8,399 bases of DNA from Clostridia bacterium. Lineage in GTDB: Bacteria; Bacillota_A; Clostridia; Oscillospirales; CAG-272. The notes under the pieces are model-generated. The model ran no database searches, was not told the DNA's origin, and was given only the letters and a program-made list of their open reading frames with translations. Both the position numbers and the translations under genes were made by a program. The stretch is from the NCBI GenBank assembly GCA_017457545.1, contig JAFTHF010000143.1:1-8399 (forward strand), given 5' to 3'. This document shows, one piece after another, positions 1,799 to 4,088 of the stretch. How positions within the stretch are numbered: position 1 is the first letter of the stretch; each line of letters starts with the position of its first letter.

Positions 1799-2713
1799 TT
1801 ACTGAAGCTTACTAAGGTCAAAGGGGGTTACCTGATATACATAGTAGTTCAGCCAGTTTGAGTAGATAATGTTGGCTGTTGAATGCCAATTCTGTACCAC
1901 CTTGGTCTTAGCCTCATCTCTGAAATAATTCTTAGGCGGCTCAATATAAAGTCCCTTAGCCATATCTCTGTCATACTCTGCCTTCAAGGTATACTTATCG
2001 TATTCCATATGTCCCATAAGGAATATGCGACGTCCGTCCTTGGAGCGAACAATAGATGCACCGATTTCCTCAGAGCCTGCAAGGATAACAAGGTCGTCAG
2101 CCTTTTTAAGCTCATCCATTGTAATGGTGGTATGACGTGAATGGGGAATGAAAAATTCCTCATCTGTACCCTTTAAAATAGGGTCATACATTACGTACTT
2201 TGTGTGGGGGAATACACCGAAAAGCTTCTTTTCCAGTCCTATTTTATTAAGACCGTAGTAGTAATGAAGCGCTGCCTGTGCGCCCCAGCAGATAAACATA
2301 GTGCTTTGCACATTGGTCTTGGCAAACTCCATTATCTCACAAAGCTCCTGCCAGTATTTAACCTCCTCAAACTCCAAGGTTTCAACAGGTGCGCCTGTAA
2401 TAATCATACCGTCAAAGCGACGGCTTTTTACCTCGGAAAAGGTATGGTAAAATCTGTGAAGATGCTGTAAGGGGGTATTCTTTCCTATGTAGCTCTCTGT
2501 ACCGATAAGCGTTACCTTAATCTGCAAGGGAGAATTAGAAAGAAGTCTTATAAGCTGAGTTTCCGTTTCTATCTTTGTGGGCATAAGATTTACTATGGCG
2601 ATTTCGATAGGACGGATATCCTGAGACTGCGCCCTTTCGTGGTCCATAACAAATATGTTTTCCCCGTAAAGTGTGGAATAGGCGGGAATATCGTGTGGAA
2701 TAATAATTGGCAT
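1799..2713 (-). CDS. metA: Homoserine O-acetyltransferase MetA (MetA/MetX class with E111)
   Basis: This 304-residue cytoplasmic enzyme acylates the hydroxyl of L-homoserine, the committing step of methionine synthesis. The length and the whole MetA pattern are intact: MPIIIPHDIPAY at the N-terminus, LMPTKIETETQLIRLL, ITGAPVETLEFEEV, the nucleophile C142 in FICWGAQA, and the H235/E237 pair in LMGHMEYDKY. Residue 111 is Glu (GAPVE). In this family Glu at that position is known to favour acetyl-CoA, whereas Gly, as in E. coli, favours succinyl-CoA; the product is therefore predicted to be O-acetylhomoserine. That matches the adjacent sulfhydrylase gene. The start has GAGAGG 7 nt upstream. It is the last gene of the minus-strand operon, separated from metY by about 106 nt carrying a hairpin array, and followed by an intrinsic terminator. 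No S-box or T-box was seen directly in front of it. Confidence 0.95.
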   Translation of the reverse strand: MPIIIPHDIPAYSTLYGENIFVMDHERAQSQDIRPIEIAIVNLMPTKIETETQLIRLLSNSPLQIKVTLIGTESYIGKNTPLQHLHRFYHTFSEVKSRRFDGMIITGAPVETLEFEEVKYWQELCEIMEFAKTNVQSTMFICWGAQAALHYYYGLNKIGLEKKLFGVFPHTKYVMYDPILKGTDEEFFIPHSRHTTITMDELKKADDLVILAGSEEIGASIVRSKDGRRIFLMGHMEYDKYTLKAEYDRDMAKGLYIEPPKNYFRDEAKTKVVQNWHSTANIIYSNWLNYYVYQVTPFDLSKLQ

Positions 2714-2733
2714 AATTTAACCTCTCAAATTAA

Positions 2734-2808
2734 TGACACACAGTGTCAATTCATGCACAACGCAATTCATGATGCCTGCATCAATTCATGACACAGGGTG
2801 TCAATTCA
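2734..2808 (-). repeat. Tandem array of four mini-hairpins with invariant TGAAT linker
   Basis: The metY-metA gap contains four consecutive units, each a small palindrome plus the linker ATTCA (TGAAT in the sense of the transcript). In plus-strand order: TGACAC-ACA-GTGTCA (2734-2748), TGC-ACAAC-GCA (2754-2764), TGATGC-CT-GCATCA (2770-2783) and TGACAC-AGG-GTGTCA (2789-2803). Linkers lie at 2749-2753, 2765-2769, 2784-2788 and 2804-2808. Every stem begins TG and ends CA, but the inner bases and stem lengths differ while pairing is kept. There is no T-run, so it is not a terminator. The last hairpin in the transcript ends 7 nt before the metA ribosome binding site. The function is unknown; RNA processing, stability or translation tuning of metA are possibilities. 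Confidence 0.85.
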
Positions 2809-2819
2809 TTGAGCTTAGC

Positions 2820-4088
2820 TTATATATTTTCAAGTGCCTGACGGATATCGTCAATAATATCCTCAGCGTTTTCAATACCTACGGAAAGACGGATAAGATT
2901 ATCCTTGATGCCGATTGCCTCAAGGTCCTTGCTTGAAAGCTGACGGTGTGTTGTTGATGCAGGGTGAAGCACGCAGGAGCGAGCGTCTGCAACGTGGGTA
3001 ACAATCTTAATCATCTTAAGCTTCTCCATAAATTCGGCTGCCTTTTCGCTGCCACCCTTTACACCGAAGCTCATCATTCCGCCCATACCGTTTGGCATAT
3101 ATTTCTTAGCAAGGTCGTAGTACTTATCTGTGGGAAGTGAGGGGTGCTTTACCCACTCAACCTTATCATTTTCTGACAGGAACTTAGCTACCTTAGCGGC
3201 ATTTTCGCTATGGCGCTCCATACGGAGAGCAAGTGTTTCCATACCCAGATTTGTAAGGAATGCGTTTTCAGGGCTCATAATTGCGCCAAGGTCACGCATC
3301 ATCTGTACTCTGCACTTTACGCCGAAGGCTGTATTGCCGAGGGTTGCGTACACAAGTCCGTGATAGCTTTCGTCGGGAACCAAGAACTCCTTATATCTTT
3401 CGGTAGCGGTAAAATCAAAGTTACCGCAATCCACGATACAACCACCGAGAGCAACTGCGTGTCCGTCAAGATACTTGGATGATGAATATACAACAATATT
3501 AGCACCGAATTCCTTGGGTCTGAAAAGAACAGGTGTAACAAGTGTGTTATCAACCACGAAAAGAACATTATGCTTTTTTGCAATCTCTGCAACCTTATCA
3601 AAATCGAATACTACGATAGTGGGGTTTGCAATAGTTTCAGCAAAAATAATCTTTGTCCTTTCGTCTACAAGAGCATCAATGCTCTCCTGTGAATCGTCAG
3701 GGTCAAAGAATCTGCACTCGATACCGTATTTCTTAAGGGTAATTGAGAAAAGGTTATATGTTCCACCGTAGATTGCTCTTGAGGAAACGATATTATCTCC
3801 CGCATTACATACGTTAAGCACGGTGAGAAGTGTTGCGCTCATGCCCGATGCACAGGCGATTGCGCCTGTACCTCCGTCAAGCTCTGCAAGCTTGCTTTCA
3901 AATACGGCAACTGTGGGGTTGGCAAGACGTGTGTAGAAGTAGCCGTCTGCCTTAAGGTCGAAAAGATCTGCAAGCTCGCTTGCCTTTTCGTATACAAAGG
4001 TTGTGCTTTTTACAACAGGGGTAACTCTTGCCTCACCTGTTTTGGGATTGTAGCCACCCTGTACGCAAACTGTATCTAATTTAGCCAT
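2820..4088 (-). CDS. metY: O-acetylhomoserine sulfhydrylase (PLP-dependent, Cys/Met metabolism family)
   Basis: This 422-residue cytoplasmic enzyme converts O-acetylhomoserine and sulfide to homocysteine and acetate. Fold-type I PLP signatures of the Cys/Met metabolism family are present: YTRLANPTV at 52-60 (Tyr and Arg that reach the phosphate of the neighbouring subunit's PLP), ASGMSA at 80-85, Y107 in AIYGGTYNLF (stacks on the ring), D180 in VVDNT (pyridine nitrogen), and the Schiff-base lysine K205 in SSSKYLDGHA. The C-terminal HVADARSCVLHPASTTHRQL is characteristic of MetY rather than of the shorter cystathionine synthases and lyases. The length fits MetY (about 420-430). The ATG is preceded by AAAGGAG, built partly from the stop codon of the UPF0210 gene 12 nt upstream. 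With an acetyl-type metA downstream, direct sulfhydrylation is the coherent pathway. Methionine gamma-lyase activity is a less likely alternative that sequence alone does not fully exclude. Confidence 0.93.
   Translation of the reverse strand: MAKLDTVCVQGGYNPKTGEARVTPVVKSTTFVYEKASELADLFDLKADGYFYTRLANPTVAVFESKLAELDGGTGAIACASGMSATLLTVLNVCNAGDNIVSSRAIYGGTYNLFSITLKKYGIECRFFDPDDSQESIDALVDERTKIIFAETIANPTIVVFDFDKVAEIAKKHNVLFVVDNTLVTPVLFRPKEFGANIVVYSSSKYLDGHAVALGGCIVDCGNFDFTATERYKEFLVPDESYHGLVYATLGNTAFGVKCRVQMMRDLGAIMSPENAFLTNLGMETLALRMERHSENAAKVAKFLSENDKVEWVKHPSLPTDKYYDLAKKYMPNGMGGMMSFGVKGGSEKAAEFMEKLKMIKIVTHVADARSCVLHPASTTHRQLSSKDLEAIGIKDNLIRLSVGIENAEDIIDDIRQALENI

Follow-up and report, generated by a model that had tools for sequence, protein, structure and literature searches.

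An array of small hairpins between metY and metA is probably one arm of a dispersed, non-coding DNA element of Clostridia

Four linked hairpins in the metY-metA gap

The window analysed here is an 8,399-nucleotide stretch of DNA from a Clostridia genome. Its minus strand carries the ORF of metY (2820..4088), encoding an O-acetylhomoserine sulfhydrylase-like protein with a Cys_Met_Meta_PP domain (Pfam PF01053, 6.1e-125), and downstream of it the ORF of metA (1799..2713), encoding a homoserine O-acyltransferase with an HTS domain (PF04204, 2.9e-129) and preceded by a likely ribosome binding site, GAGAGG, identified by eye at 2721-2726. In the 106-nt gap between the two genes the plus strand at 2734..2808 reads as four palindromes, TGACACACAGTGTCA, TGCACAACGCA, TGATGCCTGCATCA and TGACACAGGGTGTCA, with ATTCA after each, the first and fourth having identical stems and different loops (ACA versus AGG), exactly as described in the first-pass annotation of this DNA. 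Because both flanking genes lie on the minus strand, that is the natural strand on which to read the array, and there the gap contains ATGAATT GACACCCTGTGTC ATGAATT GATGCAGGCATC ATGAATT GCGTTGTGC ATGAATT GACACTGTGTGTC ATTA.

The unit on this strand is ATGAATT plus a hairpin, repeated four times and closed by ATTA; adding the ATTA at 2731-2734 to the array end places the limits of the array at 2731-2809. Linker 1 (2803..2809) is followed by hairpin u1 (2790..2802), GACAC-CCT-GTGTC, whose stem reaches 6 bp with the flanking T and A. Linker 2 (2783..2789) leads to hairpin u2 (2771..2782), GATGC-AG-GCATC, the tip of which may open to a 4-nt loop, and linker 3 (2764..2770) to u3 (2755..2763), GC-GTTGT-GC, a weak hairpin of 3 bp, one of them a wobble. 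Linker 4 (2748..2754) precedes hairpin u4 (2735..2747), GACAC-TGT-GTGTC, and the outer end ATTA (2731..2734). All four linkers are exact matches to ATGAATT, and the outer end has counterparts in the A2 collection of left arms, 11/33 of which end in ATTA and another 13/33 in ATTT or ATTG. In a predicted fold CTCAA (2809..2813) could form an outer stem with TTGAG (2724-2728). The motif ATGAATTG occurs exactly four times in the window, every copy within the array, a count reached by 1 of 200 shuffles.

Folded as a single strand, the gap forms a nested multi-branch structure whose z-score is -3.1 on the minus and -2.4 on the plus strand, and the 85-nt array folded alone gives about -1.6 on either strand. 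Such moderate values are suggestive only, and the folding energy of the gap could not by itself settle whether the array is real.

Three familiar explanations dismissed by the first-pass annotation can also be rejected here. CRISPR repeats are about 24 nt or longer and are separated by unrelated spacers; the present repeat is 7 nt and its "spacers" are palindromic, 149 of the 237 units analysed below being self-complementary over at least four pairs. The array is not a terminator, as it has no U-tract on its 3' side and runs into the metA ribosome binding site. An Rfam search gave no match at the array, either to a Met riboswitch or to any other family. Elsewhere in the window, at 1638-1689, two tandem GTAACAATGTTAC-type palindromes overlap a perfect minus-strand promoter, TTGACA-17-TATAAT, that precedes a DUF4004 gene (1238-1621) and a gene for a bactofilin-like protein (538-1227); these palindromes are probably an autoregulated operator.

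The array in a dispersed family

A covariance model of 84 positions and 19 pairs, R1, was built from 33 left arms of other genomes, the window not among them. The arms were hand-picked from 53 candidates to thin near-duplicates, and only units with three or more end pairs had been admitted to the arms behind A2 and R1. R1 matches the window along its full length (positions 1-84 of 84) with 69.2 bits and an E-value of about 1.5e-10, which like all R1 E-values is rough because the calibration was short. This full-length match settles the reality of the array where folding energy could not. Judged by this sequence-structure model of left arms, the array (2731..2809, minus strand) is a member of a family of hairpin arrays with a TGAAT linker, and corresponds to a left arm standing alone.

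The pattern ATGAATTG-N6-20-CATGAATTG, with neighbouring units of one array counted separately, was found in two of the six genomes behind the near loci (18 matches in G001 and 2 in G002; none for the reversed control). Among relatives of G001 it occurs in 11 of 38 genomes, G001 included, with up to 71 matches (G008) and one control match. In an even sample of the class, ATGAATT arrays were detected in 32 of 391 genomes, again including G001, with up to 58 matches (G176) and four control matches in total; for two of the 32, G055 and G213, the evidence is a single match that lacks a clear hairpin. The main suggestion of the first-pass annotation, a small modular repeat element, is thus borne out, the array being one member of a dispersed multi-copy family. 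No description of this family as a repeat was found in the literature searched.

Arrays are seldom inside genes. At loci of at least 2.5 kb, the array midpoint falls in an ORF of at least 100 codons in 5 of 83 clusters, compared with 1304 of 1660 random positions, and the 69 arrays with gene neighbours called on both sides lie between 55 tandem, 10 convergent and 4 divergent pairs. At locus L144 (G024), ORF translations examined by eye place one two-arm element just after a dnaN-like gene and another after a recF-like gene. A pattern scan of viral contigs returned 11, of which 8 carry hairpin arrays, some being the same stretch on overlapping contigs; the other three (L001, L004, L009) were judged by eye to be simple or coding-like repeats and were dropped from later counts. 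A stricter pattern retained L002 only, and blastn searches of phages and of plasmids, each with one full element as the query, gave no match.

A two-arm plan with a centre complementary to the first hairpin

The 108 linker clusters comprise 63 with a forward and then a reverse arm, 11 with the reverse order (all in G008), 29 with a single orientation and 5 compound cases. In the G008 loci L161-L170 the arms diverge from the centre instead of converging. The commonest plan consists of a left arm of about four hairpins (units u1-u4), a centre, and a right arm of units r1-r3 (three or four hairpins) with inverted linkers, to which some copies add a GCATCT(AAAC) tail. The centre is complementary to linker 1 and the 5' strand of u1. 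It matches its own u1 over at least four letters in 26 of the 37 TGAAT elements with a recognisable centre, compared with 65 of 1008 pairings with the u1 of another element, and this complementarity offers two alternative folds. A perfect hairpin of at least seven pairs ends no more than 8 nt upstream at 29 of the 109 arms that were not identified as right arms, at 1 of 17 right arms, and at 48 of 1500 random positions. Right-arm units of the GGAGCGAAGCGAGAA kind recur (e.g. L237, L239, L158); they are not full palindromes and contain GCGAAGC, an unusually stable DNA mini-hairpin.

Neither the complementary centre nor the inverted right arm is present in the 106-nt gap of the window, which has one orientation only, as do 28 of the 107 other clusters, some of them cut by contig ends. 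The units within one array differ from each other and units at the same position in different copies are often alike, so that the growth by unit duplication suggested in the first-pass annotation is not supported.

Linker dialects and the Gut-1 RNA

Searching 12 element loci against Rfam returned Gut-1 (RF01706), a model whose consensus has hairpins joined by GUGAAAU. With 44.5 bits for the GTGAAGT-linked array of L011 and 28.8 bits for the left arm of the TGAAT element in L098, both stay below the gathering score of 50. The window did not reach this score and gave no match at E up to 5; the GUGAAAU linkers of Gut-1 are not found in it, its own linker being ATGAATT. The statement of the first-pass annotation that no named repeat family was recognised comes close to being right, the window itself having no match to Gut-1, the closest named family, which has the same plan and another linker. 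Weinberg et al. 2010 (PMC2864571) record Gut-1 from human gut only and place it with the motifs that are most likely to be expressed as non-coding RNAs; it is not listed there as a repeat element. That paper alone mentions RF01706 in the literature searched.

RF01706 matches 64 of the 391 genomes of the class sample at E 1e-3 or better, 39 of them above the cut-off, with a maximum of at least 12 matches per genome, the number of candidates scored being limited to about 11; among 14 control genomes there was a match in E. coli only, below the cut-off. TGAAAT arrays were present at 19 of 20 fetched Gut-1 loci and both arms at 18. The centre matches its own u1 over at least six letters in 16 of 17 Gut-1 elements (control 0/150), which shows the plan more than covariation because most of the 17 share one u1; one copy, in L220, has a changed u1 and an unchanged centre. 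The two-arm plan with its u1-complementary centre is an observation made here and no part of the Rfam definition of Gut-1.

A linker-blind finder applied to 273 loci (1.96 Mb) recovered the linkers TGAAT, TGAAAT, TCGATAT, AATTTAGC (equivalent to GCTAAAT), GTGATA and GCGATA. Two-arm examples were seen for TCGATAT (L159), GCTAAAT (L220, L222) and GCGATA (L128, L248), the GCTAAAT, TCGATAT and GCGATA dialects being represented by few loci each. A GCATCT tail follows the right arm in eight TGAAT elements (L208, L222, L223, L226, L242, L244, L245, L247), in three TGAAAT elements (L220, L255, L258) and in the GCGATA element of L248; GCATCT occurs 107 times in all fetched DNA, and 16 of these occurrences were tagged beside an arm, one of which (L068) is no real array. 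In L220, at 1150-2150, TGAAAT, GCTAAAT, TGAAT and TGAAAT elements follow in succession, apparently after a tRNA gene (assigned by eye) and its terminator. TGAAT arrays and Gut-1 occur together in 27 genomes (of 32 and 64; 5 expected), a coincidence to which kinship and cross-detection by the Gut-1 model contribute.

Gut-1 and the family of the window thus have in common rows of short hairpins joined by one invariant linker, a centre complementary to u1, several matches per genome and, at some loci, the GCATCT tail; they differ in that the linker is TGAAAT in one and TGAAT in the other. Gut-1 is the TGAAAT dialect of a hairpin-array family; the array of the window belongs to the TGAAT dialect of that family and is itself no match to Gut-1.

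Stem variation favours DNA palindromes

When 237 distinct units were taken from between exact linkers with no hairpin filter, 149 had a perfect end stem of at least four pairs, compared with 0.6% of shuffles, and these 149 used 29 different four-letter arms. In the 57 unfiltered units that are 13 long, 89.5% of cells are paired (58.9% in shuffles) and 80 cells have changes on both sides (25.6 in shuffles), with no excess over shuffles in further pair types. The shuffle controls overstate significance because the counted sequences are related; sliding the partner by one to three columns, a control that retains this relatedness, lowers pairing to 23-46%. Across whole left arms double changes affect 17 of 19 pairs and 135 cells versus 39, figures that are inflated, and partly built in, because a minimum of three end pairs per unit was required when the arms were gathered.

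G-U pairs are normally frequent in RNA helices. In the 57 unfiltered 13-long units G-U accounts for 3 of 255 paired cells, and in the filtered whole left arms for 5 of 537. Among the 237 unfiltered units there are 13 G.T mismatches on the array strand and 25 A.C, the latter being G.T on the other strand; across four dialects the numbers are 8 and 11 of 1456, for the 297 of 374 units that remain after those with at least two mismatches were dropped. Since the stems vary yet stay paired, and G-U is nearly absent, DNA palindromes are favoured over RNA, and the wobble counts of the two strands give no sign of one strand folding as RNA. What matters is therefore either both strands or the DNA duplex, unless perfect palindromes are remade by a templated process.

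These counts bear directly on the alternative that the arrays are a structured non-coding RNA, or a leader or intercistronic RNA family, with the metY-metA copy acting in cis on the stability or processing of the mRNA. Strong covariation, the tandem genes around 55 of 69 arrays and the filing of Gut-1 as a likely non-coding RNA (PMC2864571) are in keeping with such an RNA, as is the location of the present array between two same-strand genes. It is opposed by the near-absence of G-U, by array-strand wobbles that are no commoner than those of the other strand, and by two-arm elements that hold both orientations. Together with the evidence from related genomes described below, this leads us to consider an RNA family unlikely and to favour a DNA element.

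The same gap in related genomes

From a metA scan of genome contigs the best 80 loci were taken. The closest, L012, comes from a Clostridia MAG from roe deer rectum; its MetA is 91% identical and it carries the array in the same gap. By eye, the array is not in the metY-metA gap of L013-L018, L020 or L022. A genus-level search found MetA in 26 of 29 genomes, and at the 20 of these loci where the gap was read the array is present in two, in G001 (the genome of L012) and in G021 (L276). It is absent from the other 18, including those of G015 and G429, which have a MetA identity of 89-90% and other sequence there. In L277 and L278 (G015, G429) the place of the array is taken by palindromic sequence of the CCTCC...GGAGG kind, and an outer CATTAATTTGAGAGG-like end is common to both and the window. 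R1 gives 50.7 bits for L012 and its twin L110 and 41.6 bits for L276; it does not match L277-L280 and, at E up to 1, finds nothing in 47 other metA loci (921,868 bases).

Comparison of the window with L012, after segmentation into stem, linker and loop by hand and with one loop aligned with a gap, shows no change among the 34 stem letters, 5 changes among the 28 linker letters and 10 among the 13 loop letters, with 94 of 183 fourfold sites changed in metY (Fisher p 8e-10 for stems versus fourfold sites). The stems of u1 and u2, the inner stem of u4 and the GC/GC of u3 are all retained in L012, and linker 3 reads GCAAATT there. For L276 the corresponding counts are 5/34, 3/28, 8/13 and 88/189. 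Constraint therefore acts on stems and linkers, and not on loops. In u1 the loop letters are CCT for the window and AGG for L012, exact reverse complements of one another, as inversion of the hairpin would give; for three letters the probability of this by chance is 1 in 64. Four stem pairs are altered in L276, of which two, by eye, are G-U on the sense strand, and two stem pairs are lost.

The unchanged stems of L012, set against so many changed fourfold sites, look like host function rather than passenger sequence and indicate that the metY-metA array may be co-opted; co-option of a half-copy at this site is plausible. The array may also affect metA RNA, the alternative raised in the first-pass annotation. 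Like the two G-U pairs of L276, the 34 stem letters retained in L012 agree with an RNA element acting on metA, whereas the 18 of 20 genus loci read without an array do not, and together with the near-absence of G-U they speak against a dedicated metA regulator. The window array is probably an old half-copy, kept with conserved stems in three genomes and missing elsewhere.

The first-pass annotation had held that a pattern confined to this genome, in a gap unconserved even in close relatives, would be a chance or decayed sequence. The 18 loci without the array, the weakness of the third hairpin and the two pairs lost in L276 are what such a sequence might show. Against this, the array is conserved in the same gap of two other genomes, the pattern occurs in tens of genomes and R1 matches the window with an E-value of about 1.5e-10, and we regard chance or decay as scarcely credible.

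Copies at unrelated loci and their insertion sites

G113 and G141 carry copies of the element that lie at unrelated loci and share 97% identity over 327 bp; the sole comparable flank is 69% identical over 397 bases. The 5' boundary of these copies is exact. Binning errors could mimic a transfer between G113 and G141 because many of the genomes are probably MAGs. Both flanks are available at five sites, one of them (L216, L217) put together by inference from two contig ends. Complementarity between the outside flanks extends over 9, 10, 11 and 13 letters at four of these sites and over 4 at the remaining one, compared with at most 8 letters in 30 mismatched combinations. At 4 of the 5 resolved sites, therefore, the copy sits between the two arms of another hairpin. 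Of these four hairpins, those at L213 and L217 have the clear T-run of an intrinsic terminator, and that of the other two is weak or missing by eye. Over all 108 TGAAT clusters flank complementarity shows no excess over the control, so no general target rule is proposed and insertion into a hairpin loop is claimed for the G113/G141 copies only. In the Gut-1 group, left arms defined by u1 and centre have TTTT no more than 16 nt upstream at 16 of 17 loci, compared with 349 of 3000 random 14-nt stretches; Gut-1 elements thus seem to start just after a terminator-like T-tract. Searches with the G141 and G113 flanks gave no usable empty site, the second flank having no real counterpart in G113.

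The exact 5' boundary of the G113/G141 copies, and a common ATAACGAAG near both of their ends (by eye; at the 3' end in L210, L211, L212, L213 and L217), possibly a subterminal inverted repeat, are features that would suit a MITE-like element, in which a DDE transposase or other recombinase acts on the element ends and the hairpins are passengers. By eye, however, the ends read here differ between dialects and the hairpin plan is common to them, and no target duplication was demonstrated. We therefore think a MITE-like element quite unlikely.

Intergenic, palindromic, multi-copy sequences in both orientations also recall the REP, BIME and REPIN repeats mobilised by a Y1 transposase (RAYT), and at L204 (G012:C82) about 1.3 kb separates a TGAAT array from a Y1 transposase gene whose length is RAYT-like. 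REPs are defined by a GTAG or CGTC tetranucleotide at the hairpin foot, and G-T pairing is often observed in the stems of GTAG REPs (PMC3733652). Neither tetranucleotide is found on the hairpins of the window, whose foot is TGAAT; G-T is rare in TGAAT arrays, and their unit is the array rather than a single hairpin or pair. The main text of that GTAG/CGTC survey (PMC3733652) contains no words beginning Clostridi or Firmicutes. The Y1_Tnp domain (PF01797) shows no association with arrays: 22 of the 32 genomes with arrays have it and so do 211 of the 359 without (p 0.35; genomes may be incomplete), the relatives giving 5 of 11 and 12 of 27, respectively. The group II maturase domain (GIIM), present in three of the 38 relatives including one that has arrays, likewise shows no association, so that neither of the two domains looked at, Y1_Tnp and GIIM, yielded a mobilising enzyme. 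The window array is not a REP, and RAYT-type mobilisation of the family is very improbable.

Discussion

The membership of the array in the family, its presence in the same gap of three genomes, the two-arm plan, the paired variation of stems, the intergenic dispersal and the near-identical copies at unrelated loci are direct observations, as is, for two groups of elements only, placement inside or just after other hairpins. The reading that we favour, and consider probable, is that the metY-metA array is the solo left arm of a dispersed, non-coding and probably mobile DNA element of Clostridia. The stems of such an element would act as DNA hairpins, in single-stranded DNA or as cruciforms, and would be read by an enzyme recognising the linker and the fold rather than the stem sequence; it is by such reading of DNA hairpins that the element would move. 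The half-copy in the window lies inside a probable metY-metA transcript, where, shortly before the metA ribosome binding site, it would serve at least as a structured spacer between the two cistrons.

Compared with known systems, the array probably works like a structured, dispersed, probably mobile repeat of the kind represented by REP and BOX elements. With REP, BIME and REPIN sequences, which are hypothesised to be non-autonomous mobile DNA, the family has dispersed intergenic palindromes, single or in opposed pairs, in common; it differs in having three to four different hairpins per arm, free stem sequence, rare G-T and no Y1 association. MITEs and fold-back elements are likewise short and non-coding, with near-identical copies and opposed arms, and are built on one inverted repeat, whereas the arms of the TGAAT family are arrays of different hairpins with an inverted linker. 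With the BOX elements of pneumococci the likeness is in plan only: BOX modules are sequence-conserved, whereas the TGAAT family conserves its linker and not its stems and has several linker dialects. BOX elements (boxA-boxB-boxC) are described as intergenic, structured and probably parasitic, and as likely to affect co-transcribed genes (PMC3049150).

A more far-reaching interpretation is possible, and we advance it tentatively. The arrays could represent a new class of mobile DNA known by a short linker and hairpin shape, whose stems are free in sequence yet self-complementary, perhaps through template switching within the hairpin. At least five dialects would then share one plan, Gut-1 would have been misfiled as a non-coding RNA, the element would switch between two folds by means of its centre, and the change of the u1 loop from CCT to AGG would be the trace of an inversion.

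On these results Gut-1 takes on a new identity that can be tested, that of one dialect of a probably mobile DNA element present in multiple copies; its plan is also found with other linkers and in many more genomes of Clostridia. They also indicate that strong covariation alone is no proof of a functional RNA, for palindromic DNA repeats give an equal signal, and the frequency of G-U may separate the two. Palindromes that evolve with almost no G-U intermediates are, finally, a natural system in which the upkeep of perfect bacterial palindromes is directly testable.
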